From the NCBI GenBank assembly GCA_022750155.1, contig JAKIWG010000013.1, positions 1 to 58,925 of the forward strand: a stretch of DNA of 58,925 bases, given 5' to 3'. This document shows positions 24,227-34,676 of the stretch, piece by piece; position 1 is the first letter of the stretch; the number at the start of each line of letters is the position of its first letter. This stretch comes from Thermoplasmata archaeon. Its GTDB lineage: Archaea > Thermoplasmatota > Thermoplasmata > Lutacidiplasmatales > UBA184. A program made the translations under genes and the position numbers. The notes under the pieces are model-generated. The model was not told where the DNA came from, did no database searches, and saw only the letters and a program-made list of their open reading frames with translations.

Positions 24227-24994
24227 ATGGGAGAAGTCGTCCTCGGGACGAGCGGCTGGGACTATCCGGAGTGGGTCGGTCCGGTCTACCCGCGGCATGG
24301 AACCATCGACCGTTTGAGGTTCTACACCGACCTGTTCCCCATTGTGGAGGTCAACTCCACCTTCTACCGGCTCCCCCGGGTGTCGGTCGCCGAGTCGTGG
24401 GCCCGCCGCACCCCACGTCGGTTCCGGTTCGCTGCCAAGTTCCCGCAGACGATCACCCACGAGCGGCGCCTCGTGGGGGCGGAGGAGGAGCTCGGGCGGT
24501 TCCTCGAGGTGCTGAGCCCGCTCCGCGACGCAGGGAAGTTCGCGGCCGCGCTCCTCCAGCTTCCCCCGTCGCTCGCCTTCGACCCAGCCAATGTGCGGGC
24601 GTTCTACGAACGGCTCCCGGCAGACCTGCCCGTCGCCGTCGAGTTCCGCGAACCGTCGTGGAGGTCGGCCGAATCGTTCGACCTCCTGAGGGAGTTTCGG
24701 CTCGCCTACGTCGTCGTCGACGAACCGTTCCTCCCCATCGACCTCGAGGTCACGGCATCGTTCAGCTACATCCGCTGGCACGGTAGGGGGGAGCAGCTCT
24801 GGTACGACTACACGTACTCCAAGGACGAACTCACCGACTGGGTCCCGAAGGTCCGTGCACTGGAGGAACGCTCCGAGCACGTCTACGGGTTCTTCAACAA
24901 CCACTTCCGCGGCGATGCCGCGGTCAATGCCCAGGGCCTGACGGAGCAATTGGGTCTGCCGCCGCCTCCGTGGAGCTCGAAGCTGGACCGGTGA
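24227..24994 (+). CDS. DUF72 domain protein (YecE-like TIM barrel)
   Basis: 255 residues, typical length. DUF72 signatures: LGTSGWDYPEWVGPVYP at the N-terminus, FPIVEVNSTFYRLP, FAAKFPQTITHERRL, LLQLPPSLAF, VEFREPSW and YGFFNNHFRGDAAVNA near the end. Biochemical function unknown; a TIM-barrel fold is known for the family. The 3' end overlaps the convergent zinc-ribbon gene by 71 bp. Confidence 0.93.
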   Translation: MGEVVLGTSGWDYPEWVGPVYPRHGTIDRLRFYTDLFPIVEVNSTFYRLPRVSVAESWARRTPRRFRFAAKFPQTITHERRLVGAEEELGRFLEVLSPLRDAGKFAAALLQLPPSLAFDPANVRAFYERLPADLPVAVEFREPSWRSAESFDLLREFRLAYVVVDEPFLPIDLEVTASFSYIRWHGRGEQLWYDYTYSKDELTDWVPKVRALEERSEHVYGFFNNHFRGDAAVNAQGLTEQLGLPPPPWSSKLDR

Positions 24995-26342: not shown

Positions 26343-26566
26343 CGGTTTCCCGCCATGTGGCCGGAGACCGCTCGATCCTACCCCAAGGGGGGCTTTCGCC
26401 CAGGTATCGATGTCGGCCTACCGATACCCGGGCGGGAAGGCGGGGTAACGGCCCACCGAAAAACCTCCCCGGGCGGAAACGCCGCCTTTCCGCCCCGTTT
26501 CCGCCCCTCCTGCCGGGCCCTTGACGCTCTGATCTCGCGTCGCACCGGCCCGAGGTGATCTCGCGT
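26343..26566 (+). promoter_or_regulatory. Dense repeat/dyad region upstream of the RecA-like–PolB2 cassette
   Basis: Contains TTTCC(C)GCC elements at 26345–26354, 26486–26494 and 26497–26505, with inverted copies at 26430–26443 and 26472–26480. Two dyads are present: GGTATCG…CGATACC (26403–26409/26422–26428) and a perfect 11-bp GGGCGGAAACG…CGTTTCCGCCC (26471–26481/26496–26506). An 11-bp direct repeat TGATCTCGCGT occurs at 26530–26540 and 26556–26566. No gene is seen in 26187–26564. Probable operator region, possibly damage-responsive (inference). Confidence 0.5.
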
Positions 26567-27440
26567 GCTGGACCCGCTCGATGCCCTGGCCGCCGATCCG
26601 GTGGAGCTCTTCGACCTCGCGGAGGAGGTGCCGCGGCCCGGACCGGACCTGGTACACCCGGAGCCGGTGGAGCCGATCCCTTCGTCGGTGCGGATCTCCA
26701 AGAGCCGCCCGGGCCGGCATCGCTCGACGCTCCCGAGCTCCCCTCCGCTCGTGCACTGGCTCGGCCGTCACATGGCGCCGGGTGAGGCGACCCTGTGGGT
26801 CGGCTCTCCCGCGACGATCGAACCGATCCTCGAACTGTTCTATGCCGGGGTTGCCCGGGCCGGAGGCCGTCTCTCGCTCATCGAGGGAGCCAACCGGTTC
26901 CAGCCGTACCGCATCGGCGAGACGGGCCGGTCGCTCGGCCTCGACCCGGGCCGGCTCCTCGACCGGATCCGCCTCGCGCGGGCGTTCACGGCCTACCAAC
27001 TGGTCGCGCTCGTCGACGGGTGGGCGTCGGAGGCCCGACGGCGCCGCCCGACGGTCCTCGTCGGGCACGACCTGACGACGCTGTTCGAGACCGAGGAGGT
27101 TCCCGAGGAGGAGCGCGCCCCGCTCCTCACCCACGTCGCCGAGACGCTCCGCGCGACGCTGCGCGTGGTCCCGGTCCCGCTCCTCCTGACGCTCGGCCGC
27201 GGGTTCTCCCAGTTCCCGGGACTGACCGACCGCGGCCCCCGGCTCTTCGACCTCATCCGGGTCAGCGCCCGTCGCGGCCACCTCCGCCTGGAGGCGCTCC
27301 GGGACGGGTCGCGCCTTTCCGTCGTTCCCCGCCCGGCCGGCCAGTGGGGTCTCGAGGAGTTCGCCTCGACCGGCCCGGAGGAGGTGACCGCGTGGGCCGC
27401 ACAGTTCCGACGTACCGCCAGGCGCTCGAGGAGCGGATGA
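26565..27440 (+). CDS. RecA/RadA-superfamily protein with degenerate Walker A
   Basis: 291 residues. The RecA-fold signature GGRLSLIEGANRFQPYRIGETGR, then GLDPGRLLDRIRLARAFTAYQL, matches the region after the P-loop of RadA/RadB-like proteins. The P-loop itself is lost: the equivalent is GSPATIEP (residues 80–87), without GKT/S. A Walker-B-like strand is PTVLVGHDL. The first ~60 residues are Pro-rich. GTG at 26565 has GAGGTGAT about 6 nt upstream. Overlaps the next gene as ATGA and is followed by a PolB2-type polymerase. Probably a non-ATPase partner, as ImuA is for error-prone polymerases in bacteria (inference). Confidence 0.82.
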   Translation: MLDPLDALAADPVELFDLAEEVPRPGPDLVHPEPVEPIPSSVRISKSRPGRHRSTLPSSPPLVHWLGRHMAPGEATLWVGSPATIEPILELFYAGVARAGGRLSLIEGANRFQPYRIGETGRSLGLDPGRLLDRIRLARAFTAYQLVALVDGWASEARRRRPTVLVGHDLTTLFETEEVPEEERAPLLTHVAETLRATLRVVPVPLLLTLGRGFSQFPGLTDRGPRLFDLIRVSARRGHLRLEALRDGSRLSVVPRPAGQWGLEEFASTGPEEVTAWAAQFRRTARRSRSG

Positions 27441-27661
27441 AACGCTGGGAGGCGTTCGGCCGCCTCCTGACGACCCCGGAGGAGCGGGAGGCGTTCAACC
27501 AGCTCGTCACCGGCGCCCGGCGATACGCGGCGCAGGCGACGTACGTCGGGAGCCCGGATCTCCTGGAATCGATCCTCCTCTCCGTCCTCCTGGACCTCGC
27601 CCGCCGGATGGCGCCGGTCCCGGGAGCGGAGGGCTCCCCGGTCCCGTCGCCCCGGAATTGA
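27437..27661 (+). CDS. Small helical protein between RecA-like and PolB2 genes
   Basis: 74 residues, no family recognised. Mostly helical: MKRWEAFGRLLTTPEEREAFNQLV, then a second amphipathic helix DLLESILLSVLLDLARRM, and a Pro-rich tail. The ATG at 27437 overlaps the previous stop (ATGA); a GTG at 27392 in the same frame is possible but would overlap by 49 bp. Lies 25 nt before the polymerase. Its fixed place between the two suggests an adaptor or accessory subunit. Confidence 0.72.
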   Translation: MKRWEAFGRLLTTPEEREAFNQLVTGARRYAAQATYVGSPDLLESILLSVLLDLARRMAPVPGAEGSPVPSPRN

Positions 27662-27686
27662 CCGGCCTCCCCGCCGGGGGGCGAGG

Positions 27687-29984
27687 ATGAGCGACGCGTG
27701 GCTCCTCGACATCACCGAGGACCGGCGCGGGCACGACGTCGTCCTGTGGCTCAAGGACGGCGACGCCGCGGGCCGGGTCCGCGCGGTCCGGCGTCCGTTC
27801 CGGCCGCCGTTCCTGCTCGACGGACCGCGCGAACACCTTCGGGCGGTCGCCGAGCGGTTCACGGGATCGCCGGACGTGGCGACCATCGAGTGGCGGACCG
27901 AGCGCCCGTCGATCTTCGAGCGGCGGCCGCGCCGTCTCCTTGCGATCACCCCGGAGCGGAACGACCGGCGTCGTCGGCTCGCGACGGCCGTCGACGCGTT
28001 CGGCGGATACCATCGGGGCACATTGTACGACGTCGACCTGGCGCCGGCCCAGCTCTACCACCTGAGGTTCGGCCTCTACCCGTTCGCCCCGGTGGAGCGG
28101 GAGGGGGACGGGTGGGTCGCCACGGTCTCGGCCGATGCGGTCGACTACCCGCTCCCTCCGCTTAGGATCTCCCGGCTGGCCGCCGAGCTCCATGGGGTGC
28201 GACGTGGCGGGATCGTACGGGGGGACCCTGCGCTCTCGGCCGTCGTCGTGGGGGACGCGCGGCTCGAGGGGCCGGAGGCGGAGTTGTTGGACGAGGTGAT
28301 GCGGGAGCTCTCCCGCCAGGACCCGGACATCCTGTTGACCGACGACGGGGACGGGTTCGACCTGCCGTGCCTGTACCGACGGGCCGCGGCGCTCGGCCGT
28401 TCGGAAGAGGAGTTCTTCCTCGGACGCGAGGCGGTGTCGTTCCGGCCGGCGCGGCCGGCCCGGTCGTTCGCCACCTACGGGCAGGTCATGCACCGGGAGG
28501 CGTCGTTCCCGCTTCCCGGGCGCTTCCACCTCGACCGCGAGAACTCCTTCCTGTACGGCGACGCGGCGATCGACGGGCTCATCGACGCCGCGCGGCTCTC
28601 CCGGCTCTCGCTCCAGACGGTGGTGCGCCAATCGCCGGGGACGTGCTTCACGGCGATGGAGATGGCCCACGCCCTCGCCGAGGGGACCCACGTCCCGTTC
28701 CGGAAGAACCGGCCGGAGGAGTTCAAATCGGCCCACCAGCTCGTGGAGGCCGACCGCGGGGGGGTGATCTTCCTTCCGCCCGTCGGCGTGCACGACCACA
28801 TCGACGAGTTCGATTTCGCGAGCCTGTATCCGCACATCATGGTGCGGCACAACCTGTCGACGGAGACGCTCAACTGCCGGTGCTGCCCGAAGAGCACCGA
28901 GGTCACCCCCGGCCTCGGCTACCGCTCCTGCCAGCGCCGGGTCGGCCTGATCCCCCGGACCCTGGGCCCGCTCCTCGAGCGCCGCCTGGCGTACAAGGCG
29001 GCGATCCGGCGGCCCGGGACCTCGGCGGAGGACGCCGAACGCCTGCGTCGCCGGGTGAAGATGCTCAAGTGGATCCTCGTGACGGCCTTCGGCTACCAGG
29101 GGTACCGCAACGCGCGGTTCGGCCGGATCGAGTGCCACGAGGCGATCAACGCCCATGCCCGGGAGCTCATCGTCCGGCTGGTCGGCTACGCCGAGGAGCG
29201 CGGGTACCGGGTCGTCCACGGGATCGTCGACTCGCTCTGGCTCACGCCCCGGGACCGGCAGGCGTGGCCGGACCCGGAGGAGTTCGCCCGGTCGGCGAGC
29301 ACGAAGTTCGACCTGCCGCTGGGCTACGAGGGCCGGTACCGGTGGATCGTCTTCCTGCCGTCGCGCCACGGCCTCGGGGTCCCGAACCGCTACTACGGTC
29401 TCTACGAGAGCGGCGCGTTCAAGCTGCGGGGCGTCGGCTCGCGGCGGCACGACACCCCGCTCCTCCTGCGACGATTCGAGGGGGAGATCCTCGACCTGAT
29501 GAAACGGGCGACGGATGCGCCGGAGGTCGCCGCCCTCCTCCCCCGGCTCCTCGCCCGTGCCGACCGGTTCGCCGAGGAGGTCCGAGCACGACGCTGGCCC
29601 GTCGAGGAATTGCTGATCACGCACCGGCTGAGCCAGCCGGTGGACGCCTACGTGACGTTCACCGACAGCGTGGCCGCGATGCGCCAGTTGGCCGACGCCG
29701 GGGTGACGCGCGCGCCGGGTGAAACGGTCCGCTTCGTCATCCGGGACCGCCGTTCGCGCTCCTGGCGGGACCGGGTGCGCGTCGCCGAGCTCCTCGAGCC
29801 GGACGACCGCTACGACCCTCAGGCGTACCTGGAGCTGATGGCCCGCGCCGCCGAGACGCTCCTCGCTCCACTCGGGGTCCGGCGCGAGGGGCTGCTCGAA
29901 CGCTGGAACGCCGGGCCGGCTCCCGAACGCGACCGGTACCGCTCGGTCGAGGGCCGGACCCAGAGGCCGCTCTCGGCGTCGTAG
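27687..29984 (+). CDS. Family B DNA polymerase, PolB2 (Dpo2)-like
   Basis: 765 residues. Motif A is intact (DFASLYP, Asp376). Motif B is altered: KWILVTAFG has Val where the conserved Asn and Phe where the Tyr would be. Motif C is GIVDS instead of GDTDS, keeping only the second, essential Asp (Asp515). The exonuclease domain is decayed: Exo I DIE is replaced (LRISRLAAELHG), Exo II keeps GFDLP (224–226). The YxGG motif is DRGG. This fits archaeal PolB2/Dpo2, linked in crenarchaea to damage-induced, error-prone synthesis. Not a replicative enzyme. ATG at 27687 follows GGGGGGCGAGG. Confidence 0.88.
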   Translation: MSDAWLLDITEDRRGHDVVLWLKDGDAAGRVRAVRRPFRPPFLLDGPREHLRAVAERFTGSPDVATIEWRTERPSIFERRPRRLLAITPERNDRRRRLATAVDAFGGYHRGTLYDVDLAPAQLYHLRFGLYPFAPVEREGDGWVATVSADAVDYPLPPLRISRLAAELHGVRRGGIVRGDPALSAVVVGDARLEGPEAELLDEVMRELSRQDPDILLTDDGDGFDLPCLYRRAAALGRSEEEFFLGREAVSFRPARPARSFATYGQVMHREASFPLPGRFHLDRENSFLYGDAAIDGLIDAARLSRLSLQTVVRQSPGTCFTAMEMAHALAEGTHVPFRKNRPEEFKSAHQLVEADRGGVIFLPPVGVHDHIDEFDFASLYPHIMVRHNLSTETLNCRCCPKSTEVTPGLGYRSCQRRVGLIPRTLGPLLERRLAYKAAIRRPGTSAEDAERLRRRVKMLKWILVTAFGYQGYRNARFGRIECHEAINAHARELIVRLVGYAEERGYRVVHGIVDSLWLTPRDRQAWPDPEEFARSASTKFDLPLGYEGRYRWIVFLPSRHGLGVPNRYYGLYESGAFKLRGVGSRRHDTPLLLRRFEGEILDLMKRATDAPEVAALLPRLLARADRFAEEVRARRWPVEELLITHRLSQPVDAYVTFTDSVAAMRQLADAGVTRAPGETVRFVIRDRRSRSWRDRVRVAELLEPDDRYDPQAYLELMARAAETLLAPLGVRREGLLERWNAGPAPERDRYRSVEGRTQRPLSAS

Positions 29985-33191: not shown

Positions 33192-34676
33192 GTGACCGGT
33201 CGCAGTCGCCGGCCCAGCGTCCGGGACCGGAGCAAAGATCGGGAGCCCCCGACTCCGGCCGCCCGCCTCGCCGAGATCAAGGCGATGGCCGACGAGGGGC
33301 AGACGGTCGACCTGGAACGCCTCGTGCGGTGGCTCGCCGATCCGGATCCGCTGGTTCGCCAGGGATGCGCCTGGGTACTCGGGGAGAAACGGGAACGCCG
33401 GGGACGCGCCGCGTTGGAGGCGGCCCTGAACGACCCGTCCAACCGGGTCCGCGCCACGGCGGTCGAGGCGCTGGGGGCGATCCGCGCCCCCGAGAGCCGG
33501 ATCGCCCTCGAACTCTCCCTGAAGGATCCCGACGCGCGGGTCCGCTCCCAGGCCGCGTGGGCGGTGTGGGCGTTGGATGACGCGCGCTCGGGAGCGGCCA
33601 TCCTCCCCCTGTCCCTGGACCCGGACCCGGCGGTCCGCCAGGGGGCGGCCGCCGCGGTGGGACGCCTGCAACCGAAAGGCGGCTATGATCGACTGGTCGT
33701 GATGCTCCGGGACCCGAACGACCGGGTCCGTCGCCAGGCGGTATACGGCCTGGGCGGGTTCCGAAACCCTCGGACCCCCTCGCTCGTGCGTCCGCTCCTG
33801 GGAGACCCGGCGCTCCGCGTGCGGATCGCCGCCGCCACGATCCTCGGCCGTTGCCGGGACGTGGAATCGGTTCCGCTCCTGCTCGAACACCTCGCGACCG
33901 ACGACGCGTGGATGAAACCGGCGGCGCTCGTCGCCCTCGGACAGGTCGGCGACCTGAGTGCCCTCCCGCAGCTGCTCGCCGCCATCGACGATCCGGCCGG
34001 GTGGGCGAGGGTGTGCGCCTTCCACGCGTTGGCCGCCCTGAAGGACCCGTCGGCGCGCCCCGCGGCTCGCTCCCGAATGAAGGATACGCTCTGGTCCGTG
34101 CGCGGCGCGGCGGCCGAGTGCCTCGGCGCCGTAGGGAACGAGGAGGATCTTTCGCTGCTCCTCGAAACGCTCGAGGACCCGCACCCGTGGCCACGGCGAG
34201 GGGCGGTCTACGCGCTCGGGAACCTCGGCCTGTCGGAGGCCTCCCCCCGCATTCGCGAGGAGCTCCGCCATCCGGTCGCCGAGGTCCGCCTCGCCGCCGT
34301 CTGGGCGCTCGGTCGACTCCGCGACGACGGAGCGAGGGAGGCGATCGCGGCGGTGCTGCGCCAGTCCCACCCGGCCCGAGGGAACCGTCCGACGATCGCG
34401 GAGGGGGACGGGGCCGTGCGGCTCCTCAGCGATGCGGAGGACCGCCTGTTCGATTCCGCAGTGCAGGCACTGGGCCGCCTGAGCCAGGGTGAGTTCGACC
34501 CGGTCGTGGCGCGCGCCCTGCTGGAGGCGCGCTCGAGGGTGCCCGAGGAGGAGCTCGAGCGCCTCGCCCGTCTTCCGACCCCCGAGGTGAGCGTCCGCGG
34601 GACCCCGCCGACGCTCCGTCTGATCTTCGAGACGGCCCTGCCCGCGGCGGTCGACGAGGACGAGCTGGGATGCTGA
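33192..34676 (+). CDS. HEAT-repeat (PBS lyase-type) protein
   Basis: 494 residues, about ten to twelve HEAT/Armadillo-type repeats of ~31 residues, each with the pattern DPxxxVRxxAxxALGxx (LADPDPLVRQGCAWVLGE, LNDPSNRVRATAVEALGA, LSLDPDPAVRQGAAAAVGRL and so on). Such solenoids are protein-interaction scaffolds or bilin-lyase-like; no catalytic motif seen. The C-terminal ~120 residues are less regular. Overlaps the next gene by 7 nt. Confidence 0.9.
   Translation: MTGRSRRPSVRDRSKDREPPTPAARLAEIKAMADEGQTVDLERLVRWLADPDPLVRQGCAWVLGEKRERRGRAALEAALNDPSNRVRATAVEALGAIRAPESRIALELSLKDPDARVRSQAAWAVWALDDARSGAAILPLSLDPDPAVRQGAAAAVGRLQPKGGYDRLVVMLRDPNDRVRRQAVYGLGGFRNPRTPSLVRPLLGDPALRVRIAAATILGRCRDVESVPLLLEHLATDDAWMKPAALVALGQVGDLSALPQLLAAIDDPAGWARVCAFHALAALKDPSARPAARSRMKDTLWSVRGAAAECLGAVGNEEDLSLLLETLEDPHPWPRRGAVYALGNLGLSEASPRIREELRHPVAEVRLAAVWALGRLRDDGAREAIAAVLRQSHPARGNRPTIAEGDGAVRLLSDAEDRLFDSAVQALGRLSQGEFDPVVARALLEARSRVPEEELERLARLPTPEVSVRGTPPTLRLIFETALPAAVDEDELGC

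Follow-up and report, generated by a model that had tools for sequence, protein, structure and literature searches.

The 58,925-nt stretch of DNA analyzed here (the window; contig JAKIWG010000013.1 of assembly GCA_022750155.1, designated C7) belongs to a 2.13 Mb Thermoplasmata genome that is 93.7% complete, and at 26565-29984 it carries three adjoining plus-strand genes in the order iRadA, PPB2, PolB2. These genes very likely form the PolB2 mutasome operon of an acid-soil type archaeon related to Lutacidiplasmatales/UBA184. An earlier reading of the sequence (the original prediction) had placed here three same-strand genes for a RecA/RadA-fold protein with a lost P-loop, a small helical protein, and a PolB2-type family-B polymerase with altered catalytic motifs, and had proposed that they form an error-prone lesion-bypass complex. 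The genes and protein types were borne out, and the proposed function agrees with what the literature says of such gene sets (PMC4104785, PMC11791011). The linkage of iRadA, PPB2, and PolB2 was reported in 2014 by Makarova et al. (PMC4104785), and the complex was modelled in 2025 by Timinskas et al. (PMC11791011), who list the gene order of the window among others. The cassette is a clean added example of an already published machine; its biology is sound but had been proposed before. Directly seen here were the genes and their order, the motifs, the loss of the P-loop, the co-occurrence in relatives, and the RadA fold of iRadA. The features, all on the plus strand, are as follows.

26552..26559, plus strand: Shine-Dalgarno-like GAGGTGAT ahead of the iRadA GTG start (sequence reading)
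26565..27440, plus strand: iRadA, RadA/Rad51-fold protein of 291 residues, GTG start, ATP site lost (Pfam, PDB-sequence profile, model, Foldseek)
26802..26825, plus strand: GSPATIEP, iRadA residues 80-87, at the Walker A P-loop site (alignment with RadA and the RadB-like protein of the genome)
26976..26999, plus strand: ARAFTAYQ, iRadA residues 138-145, the most conserved iRadA segment; RadA counterpart ARAFNSNHQ
27342..27362, plus strand: PIP-like (PCNA-binding-like) QWGLEEF, iRadA residues 260-266, second aromatic lacking (pattern search)
27380..27387, plus strand: Shine-Dalgarno-like GGAGGTGA within iRadA, ahead of the PPB2 start
27392..27661, plus strand: PPB2 (arCOG07300-like), 89 residues from a GTG start; N-terminal MGRT arm (Arg3, Arg9)
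27687..29984, plus strand: PolB2, family-B DNA polymerase of 765 residues (Pfam, alignment, tree)
28533..28538, plus strand: D(K/R) motif of PolB2, Asp283-Arg284 (alignment)
29217..29243, plus strand: motif C of PolB2, HGIVDSLWL, with Ile for the first Asp of the catalytic DTD and the final Asp retained (alignment)

A scan of named genomes matched 593 stretches, of which 578 were confirmed, and the best 80 of these, nearest to the Thermoplasmata query, were used. PPB2 was found on the same strand upstream of PolB2 in 75 of the 80 loci, iRadA in 74, and both in 74, so that the three genes are neighbors elsewhere, the point on which the original prediction had staked itself. This recurrence exceeds chance. 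Among the six loci without both partners, L108 and L136 have nearly no upstream sequence, L128 has PPB2 only, and L085, L106, and L112 have neither; the genome of L136 (G045) carries iRadA and PPB2 on another contig. Of the named genomes scanned, those closest to the window are Thermoplasmata metagenome-assembled genomes (MAGs), among them UBA184 and the AcS and SubAcS isolates, which are placed in the order Lutacidiplasmatales in PMC9287336. In the same genus, PolB2 was found in 21 of 25 genomes, that of the window counted among the 25, and the four without it (G004, G008, G017, and G021) are 61-80% complete. Both partners lie upstream on the same strand in 22 of the 25 PolB2 stretches taken from relatives; L057 is cut, and L060 and L061 hold partial PolB2 without partners. 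The PolB2 gene of L061 (contig C164 of G028) is fragmented with an internal stop, and this is perhaps a decayed locus. Two haloarchaeal plasmid loci show the same gene order with Cdc6-family genes nearby, and one of them also has an SOS-response-associated peptidase (SRAP). As a separate observation, L097 (positions 1-8385 of contig C153 of G044), as assembled, holds two mutasome cassettes tail to tail on opposite strands, one of them with a DUF72 gene, the two PolB2 genes being 85 bp apart.

The first protein, iRadA, matched the Pfam family Rad51 with E 2.6e-5 and 24.1 bits (cut-off 22), and its profile matched RadA among PDB sequences with E 9.3e-13. Its structure was predicted from a 36-row alignment (A2: the window and 35 of the 74 iRadA-bearing loci, chosen by us), with a mean pLDDT of 80.6 and 186 of 291 residues at 90 or above. 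In Foldseek, this model retrieved RAD51 and RadA chains, with a best E of 2.7e-12 and TM-scores of 0.71 by target and 0.56 by query. It is the RadA core fold that is matched; residues 1-56 are mostly of low confidence, and no N-terminal domain is confidently modelled. At the Walker A site, where RadA of the same genome has GEFGTGKT and its RadB-like protein GEGGSGKT, iRadA has GSPATIEP. The original prediction had regarded an intact ATP site in close relatives as evidence against itself; the P-loop is absent from all 74 assessable iRadA rows of the alignment, window included, a 75th row being cut by a contig end. The segment ARAFTAYQ, by contrast, has been retained: of the 10 columns that are invariant in A2, 5 fall within it. 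In RAD51, the corresponding part contributes to the pocket that receives the FxxA oligomerization motif. ARAFTAYQ is probably, by analogy, the subunit-binding surface of iRadA, and a place in such a pocket would agree with the modelling in print, where PolB2 holds iRadA in the way one RadA subunit holds the next.

Where does PPB2 begin? The small protein was originally read as 74 residues with an ATGA overlap, and its helical nature is supported by the structure model (helices 8-24, 29-44, 46-51, and 57-73; mean pLDDT 77.8), but the 74-residue version is truncated. An in-frame GTG at 27392 lies behind GGAGGTGA, and MGRTVPTYRQALEER is encoded ahead of the Met of the shorter version. Read from this GTG, PPB2 has 89 residues, begins MGRTVPTYR, and shares 49 nt with iRadA. 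The original prediction was correct on the 25 nt between PPB2 and the polymerase (27662-27686). The start was compared in 23 rows, 20 from the same genus, window included, and L053-L055. In all 20 same-genus rows, an ATG or GTG stands exactly at the 49-nt overlap, preceded by GGAGGTG and followed by GRT, and the ATG chosen previously reads Leu in 5 of them; the ATGA overlap was therefore rejected as the start. In the other three rows the two genes are 4 nt apart, 1 nt apart, and overlapping by 8 nt, with GRS in one and ACG at the aligned first codon in one. More widely, the 49-nt overlap occurs in 39 of the 74 named loci that have both genes. This correction matters, since the conserved MGRT arm is otherwise missed in annotation.

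The arm itself is highly conserved. All 38 selected PPB2 sequences (alignment A3: the window and 37 of the 75 PPB2-bearing loci, chosen by us) have G2, R3, and T4, and the arm reads GRT in 70 of the 75 named loci; the other five have GRM, GRC, GRD, GRS, and none, which may be placement errors of the script. The Haloarcula and Haladaptatus proteins begin MGRTNPTYR and VGRTNPTYR, respectively, and PPB2 of G043 opens with MGRT though other open reading frames (ORFs) separate it from iRadA. PPB2 matches no Pfam or NCBIfam family, and its model retrieved nothing in Foldseek at E ≤ 0.001. Chains of a SigE N-terminal domain appeared only at E 2.4 and worse, and at most faintly recall the likeness to sigma factors that has been published. 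The best match of the PPB2 profile among PDB sequences (chain OR280, E 0.024) was taken as chance. In the published modelling, PPB2 is a trimer (PMC11791011).

The third protein matched Pfam DNA_pol_B with E 1.5e-20 and aligns along the PolB2 rows over its full length. Its motif C reads IVD in place of the catalytic DTD. The Asp that comes first in this motif is replaced in 78 of the 80 loci, by Ile in 74 and Leu in 4, with gaps in the remaining 2, while the final Asp is retained in 78 of 80 and the motif A Asp in the 12 sequences aligned there. In the exonuclease domain, the window polymerase has LAAE where the other PolB of the genome has FDIE, and its ExoII and ExoIII stretches differ as well; judging from this alignment, the proofreading active site has apparently been lost. 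A tree was built from 39 rows, namely the window, 33 of the 80 loci, 2 haloarchaeal sequences, and 3 other PolB. In it, the PolB2 rows, haloarchaeal ones included, stand apart from the three other PolB with support 100/100. The window polymerase matched 59 PDB sequences, none of which is named PolB2 or Dpo2. Its Asp283-Arg284 corresponds to the D(K/R) motif reported to contact the PPB2 arm (PMC11791011).

In the published mutasome, a fraction of members carry a clamp-binding motif in iRadA or PolB2. In the window, the PIP-like QWGLEEF sits 25 residues before the C-terminal end of iRadA. The pattern Q..[LIMV]..[FYWL] was found within the last 70 residues in the window, in 38 of 38 near-clade sequences, and in 29 of 36 others, compared with 6% of shuffled tails; this control ignores relatedness, and kinship inflates the counts. 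Four more distant loci (L114, L115, L116, and L123) have the fuller eight-residue PIP type. In this genus, the last 15 iRadA codons overlap the PPB2 arm, and we infer that the motif lies further inside because this tail is not free to evolve. Separately, the PolB2 tail carries S-[PAVG]-[EQSG]...Q..[LIMFV], of the RSPE...Q..L type, in 36 of 37 full-length near-clade sequences; in the window it lies in 29865-29984.

The cassette thus resembles the published PolB2 mutasome in its three genes and their order, the lost P-loop, a helical PPB2 of about 90 residues whose MGRT arm has Arg3 and Arg9, the DxD altered as in most members, the D(K/R) motif, and, less clearly, the PIP-like motif of iRadA. 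It differs in the fixed 49-nt iRadA/PPB2 overlap of its genus and in the place of the PIP-like motif and its missing second aromatic. Several observations weigh against the assignment. Many of the 80 loci are related MAGs and are not independent. L085, L106, and L112 lack both partners beside PolB2 despite at least 1.7 kb of upstream sequence. On other contigs, the genome of L085 (G041) has DUF72, iRadA, and PPB2 together with no PolB2 behind them, and that of L112 (G043) has iRadA and PPB2 with other ORFs between; the genome of L106 (G042) gave only one weak RadA-like match (E 2.5e-7), presumably ordinary RadA. The window iRadA motif falls short of a full PIP box by one aromatic residue, the second, and the idea that the polymerase tail carries a canonical box was rejected, none being present in 37 PolB2 tails. 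Finally, unlike the published mutasome, the cassette has no Orc1/Cdc6, LexA, or SRAP gene among the 17 chosen flanking ORFs that were scanned (7 + 10).

We suggest the following mechanism for the PolB2 mutasome of the window. PolB2, with its altered active site (IVD) and decayed proofreading domain, would carry primer extension across lesions and introduce mutations in doing so. iRadA, its P-loop lost, would retain the subunit-gripping surface of RadA and dock on a RadA-like segment of PolB2, probably tethering the complex to PCNA through the PIP-like motif. PPB2, as the trimer predicted in print, would insert one MGRT arm between the polymerase and iRadA, beside the DNA; the published stoichiometry is one iRadA, three PPB2, and one PolB2 (PMC11791011). 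Formation of the complex, induction by DNA damage, translesion synthesis, and mutagenesis would be expected here by analogy with published relatives. DNA-damage induction and error-prone bypass are reported for Sulfolobus (PMC7390963, PMC11791011), and the Sulfolobus islandicus polymerase was reported in 2020 to account on its own for damage-induced targeted mutagenesis (PMC7390963). The window PolB2 is like S. islandicus Dpo2 in the replaced first Asp of DxD and in coming from a lineage that also has a family-Y polymerase. However, function was shown by genetics in S. islandicus, whereas it is assigned by homology in the window.

The cassette had also been likened to the bacterial ImuA-ImuB-DnaE2 system, and the logic is indeed similar, with a RecA-like protein encoded beside an error-prone polymerase. 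That system includes the family-C polymerase DnaE2 and the Y-family-like ImuB. Here, the polymerase is of family B, and the small protein is without a Pfam or NCBIfam match, so that the cassette contains neither DnaE2 nor a Y-family-like ImuB, and the chance that it is an archaeal version of that system is practically nil. The analogy made in print is with bacterial Pol V, which by parts also has a bypass polymerase, a RecA-family partner, and a small subunit with an inserted N-terminal arm (PMC11791011). Unlike the cassette, Pol V has the family-Y UmuC, an active RecA, and an unrelated small subunit, UmuD′; Pfam and NCBIfam searches found no UmuC or UmuD′ family in the cassette, and the family-Y polymerase of the genome is on contig C9. 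Could the polymerase instead be without catalytic activity, and the complex serve a structural or regulatory role such as clearing stalled forks or controlling replication initiation? The replaced first Asp and the altered exonuclease motifs would agree with such a role, which was suggested in 2014 in PMC4104785, where the family is read as mostly inactivated. However, in motifs A and C PolB2 retains its remaining catalytic Asp residues, and S. islandicus Dpo2, which has IID at the same site (PMC11791011), actively carries out lesion bypass in vivo (PMC7390963). We consider a dead polymerase very improbable.

A DUF72 protein is encoded upstream of the cassette (24227-24994), and it might be a working partner that handles the lesion, making a four-protein system. 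In the near clade, 27 loci have at least 2.5 kb before the iRadA domain, and 26 of them have DUF72 there on the same strand, 16 within 1 kb; the 11 loci below this limit were left out of the count, and 5 of them had DUF72 in view. Some degree of DUF72 enrichment near polB2 is also reported for archaea and bacteria (PMC11791011). These counts looked strong until synteny was controlled for in 28 loci (the 27 near-clade loci and L102), where DUF72 was present in 27, but a ferredoxin in 23 and an A-ATPase subunit in 21. A HEAT-repeat protein was found in 24 of the 28 and a zinc-ribbon gene in 3, whereas no locus showed the membrane-protein ORF that intervenes in the window or any of the four genes that follow downstream. 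Because other neighbors are nearly as frequent in the clade, shared synteny can explain the DUF72 linkage. Furthermore, DUF72 is upstream in only 2 of 9 and 2 of 18 loci of less related sets, and in the window it is separated from iRadA by about 1.6 kb that carries minus-strand ORFs. A working role for DUF72 appears unlikely, and we do not claim it as a fourth component. A tuned four-part variant, in which the overlap would couple iRadA and PPB2 synthesis and fix the iRadA tail, clamp binding would for that reason have moved inward, and the DUF72 TIM-barrel protein would handle the lesion as a partner, we hold to be quite unlikely. The control shows that even a striking clade-wide linkage of DUF72 is alone no evidence of function.

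Two other observations concern these neighbors. The genome has two DUF72 genes, at 24227-24994 (219.7 bits) and at positions 2047-2709 of contig C21 (187.9 bits), and the relatives split likewise. The HEAT-repeat protein downstream of the cassette (33192-34676) has matches of about 50% identity, which reflect either conserved synteny or cross-matches between repeats.

Besides the PolB2 mutasome, the genome encodes the family-Y polymerase, a second PolB, and an intact RadA. The second PolB (positions 31796-32989 of contig C29) lies about 6 kb from the RadB-like gene with the intact P-loop (39020-39676 of C29), on the same strand. The cassette is an addition to the polymerase set of the genome and is not its sole candidate bypass polymerase. 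Among the papers searched for the names of the parts, only PMC11791011 was found to contain them, and the cassette opens no question beyond those of that 2025 paper. What it contributes is a further host: an uncultured acid-soil Thermoplasmata lineage is added to those of the PolB2 mutasome.

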